Part shown: in pieces, positions 55,341-57,564 of the stretch
How the letters are laid out: every line of letters starts with the position of its first letter
Numbering within the stretch: the stretch's first letter is position 1
Source of the DNA: Rhabdophis nuchalis
Taxonomy: Eukaryota; Chordata; Lepidosauria; Squamata; Natricidae
Direction of reading: 5' to 3'
Assembly (NCBI GenBank): GCA_039707465.1
Contig: CM077645.1
Location: 160,029,003 to 160,093,002, forward strand
Length of the DNA: 64,000 bases
Position numbers and translations under genes: made by a program
Notes under the pieces: generated by a model
Database searches by the model: none
Told to the model about the DNA's origin: nothing
Seen by the model: only the letters and a program-made list of their open reading frames with translations

Positions 55341-55685
55341 TGAAGTGGATATATTGTTACAGCTTCCTGTTAGGCCTATTCAAGGGAGGAGACAAACTAG
55401 TCATCCTTCTCTGTCCTTCGACTCAACCTAGAGACCATCCAGACAGAGACCTATTAAATTGCTGCTGTCTTTTTAGATATGTGTTAAATTTCTTTAAGGG
55501 ATGATTAATAATAATTAATTAAGAGACCAGGATGGATCCATTTCGGGCTCCTTAGCCCTCGTCAGCTGGCCATACTTCCCTACAGGGATTTGAACTGGTG
55601 CTCTCCAGCATTCGAAGCAGGCTTCTCTATGCCTTGAGCTAACCAGTTTCCCTGATTACATCATCCTTTCTACAGGACTTTATTG
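55341..55685 (-). mobile_element. hammerhead repeat unit A (tRNA-like head, ribozyme, tail)
   Basis: Read on the minus strand: a tRNA-like head with box A TAGCTCAAGGC (complement of 55631-55641) and box B AGTTCAAATCC (55586-55596). A hammerhead follows at 55571-55525, then a 180-bp tail ending ...atatccacttca at the (AT)n tract. Unit length is 345 bp. The tail of another unit precedes it in the same orientation (55686-55758), so units were tandem. The box A/box B pair would allow RNA polymerase III transcription through the ribozyme. No protein is encoded. Confidence 0.75.
55525..55571 (-). ncRNA. type I hammerhead ribozyme (copy A)
   Basis: 47 nt on the minus strand. Stem I is GGCCAG paired with CUGGUC. 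The core CUGACGA is followed by stem II GGGCU/AGCCC with loop AAGG, then GAAA. Stem III is the palindrome AUGGAUCCAU, followed by C17. All invariant core positions (C3, U4, G5, A6, G8, A9, G12, A13, A14, U16.1) are present. Predicted cleavage is 3' of the C opposite base 55531. Compared with copy C, one base pair in each of stems I, II and III has changed in a compensatory way. Self-cleavage itself is inferred. Confidence 0.88.
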
Positions 55686-55758
55686 ATGAAGTGGATATAT
55701 TGTTACAGCTTCCTGTTAGGCCTATTCAAGGGAGGAGACAAACTTTAACATATATATA
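55686..55758 (-). repeat. partial hammerhead-family tail
   Basis: The first 57 bases repeat 55341-55397 (gaagtggatatattgttac and onward). It is the 3' tail of a preceding unit in minus orientation and then runs into a short atatatat palindrome. Confidence 0.85.
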
Positions 55759-55775
55759 TGTTAAATTTCTTTAAG

Positions 55776-55932
55776 GGATGATTAATTTAACACATATCTA
55801 AAAAGACAGCAGCAATTTAATAGGTCTCTGTCTGGATGGTCTCTAGGTTGAGTCGAAGGACAGAGAAGGATGACAAGTTTGTCTCCTCCCTTAAATAGGC
55901 CTAACAGGAAGCTGTAACAATATATCCACTTC
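55776..55932 (+). repeat. hammerhead-family tail, inverted copy
   Basis: Reverse complement of 55341-55496 with few differences, ending at the right (AT)n tract. Includes the hairpin GUC-GAAG-GAC with UCUCU/AGAGA flanks (55840-55866). It forms the right arm of the large inverted repeat. Confidence 0.9.
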
Positions 55933-56048
55933 ATATATATATATATATATATATATATATATATATATATATATATATATATATATATATATATATATAT
56001 ATATATATATATATATATATATATATATATATATATATATATATATAT
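55933..56048. repeat. (AT)n tract, about 57 units, right
   Basis: Uninterrupted at repeat; partner of 55214-55340. Confidence 0.95.
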
Positions 56049-56175
56049 TTGTTTTCGTAGATTTTCACGGGTGTAGGTATGCTGGCATAGCTGGCTTCGG
56101 GGATTTTCCTGTGTATAAGGCATAGAAATGTTATTGCAACGTTTTGACAAGATCTCACTTGTCATCATTTTAAGG
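56049..56175 (-). mobile_element. Penelope-like terminal sequence, inverted copy
   Basis: On the minus strand it reads gatgatgacaagtgagat, then cttgtcaaaacgttgcaa, and ends acacccgtgaaaatctacg before (AT)n. This parallels 55088-55213. The hairpin stem (GACAAG/CTTGTC) differs from the left copy (GATGAA/TTCATC), so the pairing is kept while the bases change. Confidence 0.5.
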
Positions 56176-56510
56176 GCTGATTAATAAAAAAAATTGTAAG
56201 AGACCAGGATGGATCCATTTCGGGCTTATTAGCCCTCCTCAGCTGGCCATACTCCTTCTTTGAACCGGCACTCTCCAGCATATCAGGCAAGCCTTTTTAT
56301 GCCTTGAGCTATCCGGCTTCCCATGATTACATCAGCCTTACAGGACTCTGTTAATGAGAGAATATTTTTCACAACTCCTGTTGGGGCCCCGTTAAGGGAG
56401 GAGACAAACTGTCTTCCTTCTCTGCCTTTCGGCTCAACCCAAAGATCATCTGGAGAGAGAGCCATGAGATGAAAAGCCATAAAAACCTAACACATATCTA
56501 AAAAAAATCA
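56176..56510 (-). mobile_element. hammerhead repeat unit B plus tail of preceding unit
   Basis: Minus-strand order: tail of an upstream unit (about 56510-56355, with the GCC-GAAA-GGC hairpin), tRNA-like head (about 56345-56255, degenerate box B near tttgaacc), hammerhead, then a junction into the Penelope-like segment at 56175. The unit's own tail is missing and replaced by that sequence. Confidence 0.7.
56202..56248 (-). ncRNA. type I hammerhead ribozyme (copy B)
   Basis: 47 nt. Stem I GGCCAG/CUGGUC, core CUGAGGA, stem II GGGCU/AGCCC with loop AAUA, GAAA, stem III AUGGAUCCAU, then C17. Core position 7 is G here (C in A, U in C), the one freely variable core position. All expected positions are intact. 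Confidence 0.88.
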
Positions 56511-56524
56511 TAGATAATTTATCT

Positions 56525-56882
56525 ATACTAAATATTCCTGTCTCAGCTGATGCAATGGGTAGAGCCGGTTACGCTGAATTACTAGGCTTCTGCCTTGGAT
56601 GCATTGCAGCCCCGGTTCAAATCCCAGTGGAGGGTATGGCCAACTGATGAGAGCTAATAAGCTCGAAATAGATCTATCTTGGTCTCTCAAATTTAAATTT
56701 ATTGATCAGCTCATGAAACTAACACACATATCTAAAAAATTTACACAACGTAACTCATGGTTCTCTGTCTAGATGGTCTCTGGTGATGAGCCGAAAGGCA
56801 GAGAGGGAAACAGTATGTCTCCTCCCTTAATGGGGCCCTAACAGGAAGTTGTGAAAACAATTATCTATACTAAATACTCCTG
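56525..56882 (+). mobile_element. hammerhead repeat unit C
   Basis: Plus orientation. A tRNA-like head starts at tctcagctgatgcaatgg (56541), box B GGTTCAAATCC is at 56614-56624, the hammerhead follows 13 nt later, and then comes the family tail with the GCC-GAAA-GGC hairpin at 56777-56804. The next unit repeats the head at 56883, a period of 342 bp. Left of it lies the minus-strand tail associated with unit B, so the two arrays are head to head. Confidence 0.8.
56638..56684 (+). ncRNA. type I hammerhead ribozyme (copy C)
   Basis: Stem I: GGCCAA (56638-56643) with UUGGUC (56679-56684). Core CUGAUGA at 56644-56650. Stem II: GAGCU (56651-56655), loop AAUA, AGCUC (56660-56664). GAAA at 56665-56668. 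Stem III is the palindrome AUAGAUCUAU (56668-56677). C17 is at 56678, so cleavage is predicted after 56678. All invariant positions are present, and helix changes relative to A and B are compensatory. Confidence 0.92.
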
Positions 56883-56943
56883 TCTCAGCTGATGCAATAG
56901 GTAGAGCCGGTTAGGCTGAATTGCTAGGCTGGTTAGGCTGAAT

Positions 56944-57470
56944 TGGCTGCCTGTTGTCTTCCGGGTGCGCTTCAAGGTATTAATTATCATCTTTAAAGCT
57001 CTCCATGGCTCGGGACCTAGCTATCTGCGGGATCGGATCCTGCCTCATACATCCTCACGGCCGATTCGCTCCCACAGAGAGGGACTTCTCCGGGTGCCGT
57101 CCACTAGACTCTGTCAGCGGGCGACACCCAGGGGAAGGGCTCTCTCTGTGGCGGGCCCAGCCCTCTGGAACGACCTCCCCCCCCGACATTAGGACCACCA
57201 CGGACCTCCGCTCCTTCCGTCTTAAACTAAAAACACACTTCTTCTGCCTTGCCGGCCTGGGATAGTTACTCCTCTGTTTTTGGGTTTATTGGGGATTTTT
57301 AGTGTAGCTAGTTTTAATGGGTATTTTAGCGCAGGTATTGTTTAATTTATTTTTAATGTGAATTGTTGTATATAGTTATTGTTTTTATCTTCCCTGTGCA
57401 CCGCCCCGAGTCCCTGTGGGGAGAGGGTGCGGTTTATAAGTATTAAAATTATTATTATTATTATTATTAT
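56944..57470 (+). mobile_element. L2 LINE 3' end inserted in hammerhead unit D
   Basis: Plus-strand L2 with the C-terminal blocks RFKVLIIIFKALHGSGPSYL and LALWND-like codons, a frameshift at a run of eight C (57177-57184), FFCLAGLG, the 3' UTR gcaccgccccgagtccctg, and an (ATT)n tail. The target sequence ggttaggctgaatt appears on the left twice and may be part of a target duplication. Confidence 0.92.
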
Positions 57471-57519
57471 TCTGCCTTGGATGAATTGCAGCCCCGGTTC
57501 GAATCCCAGTGTAGGGTAT

Positions 57520-57564
57520 GGCCAACTGATGAGAGCTAATAAGCTTGAAATAGATCTATCGGTC
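57520..57564 (+). ncRNA. hammerhead ribozyme (copy D), stem I damaged
   Basis: 45 nt. Core CUGAUGA at 57526-57532, stem II GAGCU/AGCUU (one G-U pair), GAAA at 57547-57550, stem III AUAGAUCUAU, C17 at 57560. The bases UU that should follow C17 are missing, so the 3' strand of stem I starts GGUC and pairs poorly in register. Probably weak or inactive. Confidence 0.75.

Follow-up and report, generated by a model that had tools for sequence, protein, structure and literature searches.

A 64,000-nucleotide stretch of the Rhabdophis nuchalis genome (hereafter, the window) contains four hammerhead ribozymes, which we assign, with a probability of about 0.8, to a snake retrozyme, i.e., an apparently non-coding, non-autonomous retroelement of ca. 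333-350 bp per unit that carries one type I hammerhead and whose cycle would proceed via RNA circles and an enzyme of Penelope-like elements (PLEs). A covarying ribozyme, a palindromic stem III, tandem arrays, two preferred 3' ends, an excess of head-to-head copies, clustering with PLE sequences, and a fusion with one of them are all present in the sequence; transcription, cutting, circle formation, and the PLE enzyme as the agent are steps that we infer. The family is probably recently active and mobilised by PLE enzymes. A preliminary description of the window had reported a cluster of four hammerhead ribozymes and had proposed that the snake repeat family carrying them is transcribed and self-cleaves. 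We conclude that this reading was partly right and too small: the cluster is one locus of a very large, recently active snake retrozyme family with PLE-like scars.

Ribozymes A (55525-55571) and B (56202-56248) are on the minus strand, and ribozymes C (56638-56684) and D (57520-57564) are on the plus strand. At each of these places, all named in the preliminary description, direct reading of the sequence revealed the core motifs CUGANGA and GAAA, with a stem II of 5 bp and a 4-nt loop between them, as well as a stem III of 3 bp capped by GAUC, and C17. Stem I has 6 bp in A, B, and C, and a distal stem I helix of 3 bp is located past an internal loop (5' UAU, 3' U). In D, whose stem I had already been noted as incomplete, two bases of the 3' strand of this stem are lost, and the copy is probably inactive or weak. 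Cleavage is predicted to occur between 55531 and 55530 in A, between 56208 and 56207 in B, and after 56678 in C. The arrangement (core CUGANGA...GAAA...H17, stems I-III, stem I open) is that of a type I hammerhead, with a damaged stem I in D. The earlier assignment to this fold was borne out by a strict descriptor (core and stems, stem I of at least 4 bp), which matched A, B, and C, but not D, in the window and gave no match in 400 first-order Markov 64-kb windows searched on both strands.

The stems covary, which also agrees with that assignment. Across the 17 pairs in the four window copies, standard pairing is seen in all 66 cells that could be counted, and every one of the four helices includes one pair in which both bases have changed; when the partners were slid by 1-3 columns as a control, 27-51% of cells were paired. 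An alignment of 19 copies (18 distinct), composed of the four window copies and 15 from seven other genome loci (L002-L008), had 95.1% of 304 cells paired, versus 34-52% when slid, and six pairs with changes on both sides. A truncated ribozyme of L003 (1180-1220) and locus L001 were excluded from this alignment. Because the aligned copies belong to few subfamilies, the number of independent covariation events is small. The 10-nt stem III sequence, which is AUGGAUCCAU in copies A and B and AUAGAUCUAU in C and D, is perfectly palindromic; among 60 genome copies, about half of which were picked by exact match and all by family likeness, the palindrome is present in 59 and the core CTGATGA..GAAA in 57.

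To estimate family size, the window's own genome (1.918 Gb, 348 contigs) was searched with core patterns, allowing up to three mismatches. A C-like core was found at 21,474 places (10,708 and 10,766 on the two strands) and an A-like core at 4,213 places (2,184 and 2,029); since the two patterns differ at seven positions, no place was counted twice. Reversed core patterns, used as a control, had no matches, and the exact ribozyme pattern had none in the viral_contigs and genome_contigs collections. The window copies are a small sample of a family with more than 25,000 ribozyme cores, and the repeat family proposed in the preliminary description is supported. Unit length is ca. 342-346 bp in the window and 333-350 bp elsewhere, i.e., within the 150-450 bp of the tandem, type I hammerhead-bearing units of animal retrozymes. 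The first 100 exact A-type places in the list, which are all on contig C1, include seven arrays of at least three cores; each of these is equally spaced, and the periods are 347, 346, 345, 346, 346, 350, and 344. The GC content of one 347-nt unit is 0.42; no reverse transcriptase (RT) or GIY-YIG endonuclease open reading frame (ORF) was found in the 345-bp unit, and the ORFs of at least 90 amino acids that touch window units extend through (AT)n, a PLE tail, or an inserted long interspersed nuclear element (LINE).

In the window, full retrozyme-like unit A (head, ribozyme, and body) occupies 55341-55683 on the minus strand, with its 3' end at 55341 followed by (AT)n. A 5'-truncated copy located upstream of it on the same strand (55687-55786, in two pieces, 55687-55744 and 55751-55786) forms a partial tandem with a period of 346 bp. 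A-prime (55784-55933, plus strand) is an inverted, head-to-head partial copy of A that is 99% identical to it and has its 3' end at the same position. Unit B (56169-56468, minus strand) consists of an upstream body part, head, ribozyme, and a short 3' part; it has no 3' body of its own and runs directly, in the same orientation, into PLE tail 2 (56049-56168, minus strand), which comprises a Penelope-like ORF start (MMTSEILSK...TRENLRKQ) and a decayed minimal hammerhead and ends in (AT)n. The fusion is most simply explained by a template switch during one insertion. Unit C (56528-56869, 342 bp, plus strand) is immediately preceded by a partial copy (56482-56507, plus strand) and is in tandem with unit D (56870-57742, plus strand), which is interrupted by an inserted CR1/L3-like LINE 3' end (56931-57469, plus strand). 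PLE tail 1 (55064-55213, plus strand), with a minimal hammerhead-like motif at 55088 and the ORF start MMNETSSK..., likewise ends in (AT)n.

The window has two (AT)n runs of at least 10 repeats, and retrozyme or PLE-tail ends flank both: one microsatellite, at 55214-55341, separates the 3' end of PLE tail 1 from that of unit A, and the other, at 55933-56048, separates the 3' end of A-prime from that of PLE tail 2. A, A-prime, and D stop at the same unit position, where (AT)n or (TCTATC)n begins. The arrangement of the cluster resembles the trace that two or more head-to-head insertions into AT-rich microsatellites would leave, and PLE tails are present at the same place. The four sites of the cluster seen in the preliminary description stand, and their presence on both strands acquires a sharper description. 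A run of eight T residues (56192-56199, minus strand) directly follows ribozyme B and would be a possible stop signal if RNA polymerase III (Pol III) reads that copy.

A similar layout was observed elsewhere in the genome. Thirty loci with a C-like core were fetched, and 29 distinct ones were annotated (L011, a duplicate of L010, was excluded). They contain 23 head-to-head junctions, in 20 loci, and same-strand ribozyme pairs less than 450 nt apart are present in six loci. Among neighbours no more than 1.2 kb apart in the 100 exact A-type places, 11 head-to-head and no tail-to-tail pairs were found. Partial tandem copies together with head-to-head inverted copies, the layout of PLEs, are thus found at retrozyme loci. 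The 3' ends fall into two preferred positions: 52 body segments begin at the ribozyme, and 25 of them stop 35-39 nt past it, 16 at 165-183 nt, and 11 elsewhere. TAACA is present right at the end in 22 of 34 short-end rows, and 13 of 34 continue into (CA)n; the remaining short-end rows meet other simple repeats or plain sequence. In loci L010, L017, and L032, some retrozyme copies end at CAACACA, followed by a shared sequence (about AARTGGTTTCCTGCCTGGAAGGCTCCTAGGTTGG), which is perhaps another subfamily or a fusion partner.

The simple-repeat tails past the 3' end would also suit a tRNA-like short interspersed nuclear element (SINE) copied by a LINE, with the hammerhead aboard, as in SMalpha; in that case, Pol III would start reading in the head, and the transcript would be trimmed by the ribozyme. 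Candidate Pol III boxes are present: B-box-like GGTTCAAATCC and GGTTCGAATCC are located upstream of the ribozyme in C and D, the former at 56614-56624 (plus strand) in the head of unit C, and a young A-type unit contains, by motif reading, AGTTCAAATCC and A-box-like TAGCTCAAGGC. These matches are suggestive, but no Rfam tRNA was found in the heads of A and C, and ARAGORN found no tRNA in the window. The head is also the least conserved part of the unit, with 53% identity between A and C, versus 72% for the body and 83% for the ribozyme. Exact-period multimers and an excess of head-to-head copies are not expected of SINEs copied by LINEs. We therefore consider a SINE origin unlikely.

The PLE tails of the window were compared with each other and with a known element. 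Their related ORF-opening sequences start at ca. 55088 and 56168 and are 49% identical over 45 residues, the simple-repeat end included. Three stem II pairs are changed on both sides between the two tails, a level reached by 65 of 500 shuffles, which makes this two-sequence control weak; the hammerhead core of tail 2 is decayed. The first ATG of tail 1 is followed by the predicted cut after ca. 28 nt and by the tail end after ca. 120 nt. Stem II is likewise where the ORF of the anole PLE begins; this element is cut 26 bp further downstream, and its reverse transcription initiates at a point 111-118 bp within the ORF (PMC11167929). A separate motif at 38194-38245 (minus strand) of the window, CTGAAGAAGCTTTGTGGATGAGAAGTGAAACATTTT, resembles a decayed minimal hammerhead and passed the PLE-type descriptor, which gave one match in 300 simulated windows.

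Genome-wide, the PLE-tail pattern matched 6,122 places (2,968 and 3,154 on the two strands), so that PLEs coexist with the retrozyme. The pattern is present in four of the 29 retrozyme loci (five places versus 0.28 expected), and a C-like ribozyme core is present in 10 of 29 PLE-tail loci (17 places versus 0.98 expected); in the latter set, L042 was dropped because it overlaps L041, and L057 and L058, which overlap slightly, were kept. Among the exact places listed for contig C1, seven of 53 A-type clusters are no more than 1 kb from one of 76 PLE-tail clusters, versus ca. 0.1 expected. The expected values assume uniform placement; since the retrozyme and PLEs both sit at microsatellites, the true excess is smaller. 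The PLE-like layout, together with proximity to PLEs above chance, suggests that PLEs spread the repeat. In locus L008 (1929-2142), two PLE tail copies are arranged head-to-head, with a palindromic junction, and adjoin a retrozyme copy.

The repeats might instead be decayed pseudo-long terminal repeats (pseudo-LTRs) of the PLEs themselves, with no separate element involved. The layout (partial tandem plus inverted copy) and the neighbourhood are indeed the same, and the fusion of unit B with a PLE tail would be accounted for. However, PLE tails of the same genome bear their own, different minimal hammerhead, joined to the PLE ORF start. In locus L080, an ORF C-terminus (NRRIIREAIEIEKQ...LPDDDK), which we take to be Penelope-like from its sequence and from the GIY-YIG matches, below the Pfam cut-off, of ORFs in L051 and L068, runs into a complete minimal hammerhead and an MMTSEILSK start; as far as its sequence tells, this is the ORF-pseudo-LTR-ORF junction of a tandem PLE. 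No PLE ORF was present between units in the 345-bp arrays that were read, and we regard a pseudo-LTR origin as slightly less probable than a SINE origin. A protein search with the PLE tail region gave no candidate, and a PDB search gave no match for the PLE tail 1 peptide and one chance-level match (E 0.53) for the L068 ORF; an NCBIfam search with four PLE-like ORFs gave one chance-level match (E 0.09), and Pfam PF01541 had one match over the genome, with an internal stop codon.

The tandem arrays were compared unit by unit. In seven arrays (L053 and L081-L086), none of 37 within-array unit pairs has an indel, and units differ by 0-5 substitutions per ca. 346 positions. L082 consists of four identical 347-bp units and L053 of three identical 345-bp units, which points to recent insertion; over 406 nt, the window A array and the L053 unit share 98% identity. 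The six units of L081 differ by 0-1 among themselves and by 5-9% from other arrays. The six arrays other than L081 diverge from each other by 0-1.4%, with indels in 12 of 15 pairs. The constant period and low within-array divergence indicate that most arrays repeat one template, as rolling-circle reverse transcription would.

Equally spaced arrays of near-identical units are also what ordinary satellite DNA would produce, by unequal crossing-over or replication slippage, with the hammerhead as a passenger. This explanation appears very improbable. The 100 exact A-type places comprise 49 singletons beside 17 same-strand arrays of at least two (mismatched copies are invisible to the exact pattern), Rfam matches are spread over six contigs, there are two preferred 3' ends, and the ribozyme pairs covary.

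The preliminary description would count as refuted if no hammerhead-model match exceeded the threshold, which is the case for the window taken alone but not for the genome. In the window, no hammerhead match reached the gathering score. The top family for A-D was Hammerhead_HH9, with scores of 28.4 (C), 27.0 (B), 25.6 (A), and 15.5 bits (D), versus a gathering score of 52 bits, and E-values in a 5-kb search of 4.5e-4, 1.3e-3, 3.5e-3, and 6.5, respectively; when the full window was searched, C (E 0.0058) and B (E 0.016) were recovered, and A and D were absent at E of 0.5 or less. Over the whole genome, Hammerhead_1 (RF00163) gave nine matches, all above gathering, among 73 scored of 227,684 candidates, and no match in 14 control genomes. 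Eight of the nine were made into loci; seven belong to the retrozyme family, and one (L001) is a different sequence. L001 (1501-1543) has the highest Hammerhead_1 score in the genome (38.1 bits), contains CTGAAGAGTCCCAAACAGGACAAAACC..., and has AAAA in place of GAAA and little stem III. A domesticated intronic hammerhead of the HH9 kind, to which the top Rfam family in the window would point, can be dismissed as next to impossible, given scores of 15-28 bits against the gathering score and more than 25,000 cores, many of them in arrays.

For the retrozyme, we propose the following cycle. A genomic array would be transcribed into multimeric RNA, in which the weak, palindromic stem III would pair two ribozymes, so that cutting would proceed as a double hammerhead. 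The monomer RNA would be closed into a circle by a host ligase. A PLE RT/endonuclease, acting at AT- or AC-rich DNA, would then start on the circle at a preferred site ca. 50 or ca. 190 nt past the cut, with the CTAACACACA site as the putative cDNA start of the PLE protein on retrozyme RNA. Reverse transcription would travel round the circle once or several times, generating tandem units, and frequent priming on both DNA ends would generate head-to-head copies. In structure prediction, two molecules of A, B, or C pair at minimum energy as a double hammerhead that has a stem III of 10 bp, which two molecules of D do not; this matches the dimer mode described for newt and axolotl ribozymes (PMC7229834, PMC6155905). 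The anole PLE protein cuts and extends both DNA strands and prefers AT-rich DNA (PMC11167929). Taken as a whole, the picture of an amniote retrozyme that was active recently and has its circular RNA copied by PLE enzymes, with arrays made by rolling circle, pairs made by two-strand priming, and a fusion made by template switching, seems to us slightly better than an even bet.

Several observations weigh against this picture. In the anole PLE, the hammerhead cut only when its protein was present, it was dispensable for insertion in vitro, and RNA ends at the hammerhead site were not detected (PMC11167929). Ribozyme cutting may therefore be unnecessary for the snake retrozyme as well. Minimum-energy folding of the monomer ribozymes gave competing structures and not the hammerhead, which is also not the minimum-energy fold of the predicted full circle. 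The array and orientation counts for A-type places come from one contig and not from a random sample, and the 29 C-like loci also contain seven tail-to-tail junctions, in six loci. In the cluster at C1:79913841-79915603, steps of 344 and 346 are mixed, and there are gaps of three units; in L083, differences among units (up to five substitutions) are as large as those from most other arrays (3-5). Constant periods could also result if a homogeneous source array were copied via linear multimeric RNA, or if amplification took place at the DNA level. A shared taste for microsatellites may account in part for the clustering with PLE tails, and nearby ORFs in L051 and L068 match GIY-YIG at E of 0.002-0.004, below the Pfam cut-off.

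The closest known systems are the axolotl retrozymes. In the paper that defined animal retrozymes, 126,247 type I motifs are counted in the axolotl, the units measure 331 and 353 bp, and PLEs are proposed as retrozyme helpers (PMC7229834). Like the snake family, Rtz_331 and Rtz_353 have a type I hammerhead with a weak stem III and a palindromic loop, tandem units of 330-350 bp, very high copy number, PLEs in the genome, and predicted dimers (PMC7229834); they also have a GC content below 50% and no coding capacity, to which the snake units analysed seem to conform. They differ in that the snake family has a snake host and a 3-bp stem III and that its RNA circles are a prediction, whereas such circles were demonstrated in axolotl; the snake family also shows head-to-head copies, a fusion with a PLE tail, and a preference for two 3' ends, none of which is described for axolotl in the sections of PMC7229834 consulted. 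PLEs have partial tandems, inverted, mostly head-to-head pseudo-LTRs, junction palindromes, and an optional 3' tail (PMC3846280). Such elements, including Anolis Poseidon (PMC11167929), share with the snake family the partial tandem and inverted, mostly head-to-head copies, the optional tail, a type I hammerhead, AT-rich targets, and an AC-rich start of reverse transcription; unlike PLEs, the snake unit lacks an ORF for RT/endonuclease, and stems I and III of its hammerhead are longer.

By description, not by sequence, the family also resembles the schistosome SINE-like repeat SMalpha, with its type I hammerhead and repeat of ca. 335 bp (PMC8490949); the snake unit differs in having candidate Pol III box motifs only. 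With amniote intronic HH9 (RF02275), it shares the top Rfam match in the window and amniote hosts (PMC6155905), but HH9 is represented by few, intron-conserved copies, while the snake family is mobile and multicopy. Amniote intronic hammerheads were described as domesticated (PMC6155905), and human and mammalian hammerheads as isolated motifs (PMC7229834); hammerhead retroelements are placed in invertebrates, coelacanth, and amphibians in these reviews (PMC6155905, PMC7229834), and retrozymes are known from invertebrates and amphibians. No snake retrozyme or other amniote case was found in the openly licensed PMC literature, among the matches listed, and a word search of PMC3088659 gave no reptile terms. 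Since the authors of the retrozyme work scanned vertebrate genomes, reptiles may figure in their supplement.

The window also contains CR1/L3 LINE ORFs, which bear on the host. The proteins with the highest identity to the L3-type RT come from snakes (Naja naja, up to 79%; Ahaetulla, up to 76%; Pantherophis and Pituophis, 75%), in line with the snake origin given in the preliminary description, though the best E-value belongs to a tegu lizard protein (69% identity); the CR1 RT is by identity closest to lizards (up to 69%). A Sauria SINE consensus used as a query had no match in the window, so the Sauria SINE lends no support to the host assignment. Positions 36357-36638 are 37% identical to a BovB RT fragment. 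At 17684-17766, 48110-48232, and 29373-29483, several microRNA models matched on both strands, all below gathering; these are probably long inverted or simple repeats.

If the proposed cycle is correct, RNA circles produced by ribozymes may still be operating in a present-day amniote, and the family would offer physical evidence that PLEs are the helper, as has long been suspected. With insertion scars of the PLE type, the question of what moves retrozymes can be tested directly. The family would also represent a mobile, still living relative of the intronic hammerheads that were domesticated in amniotes.

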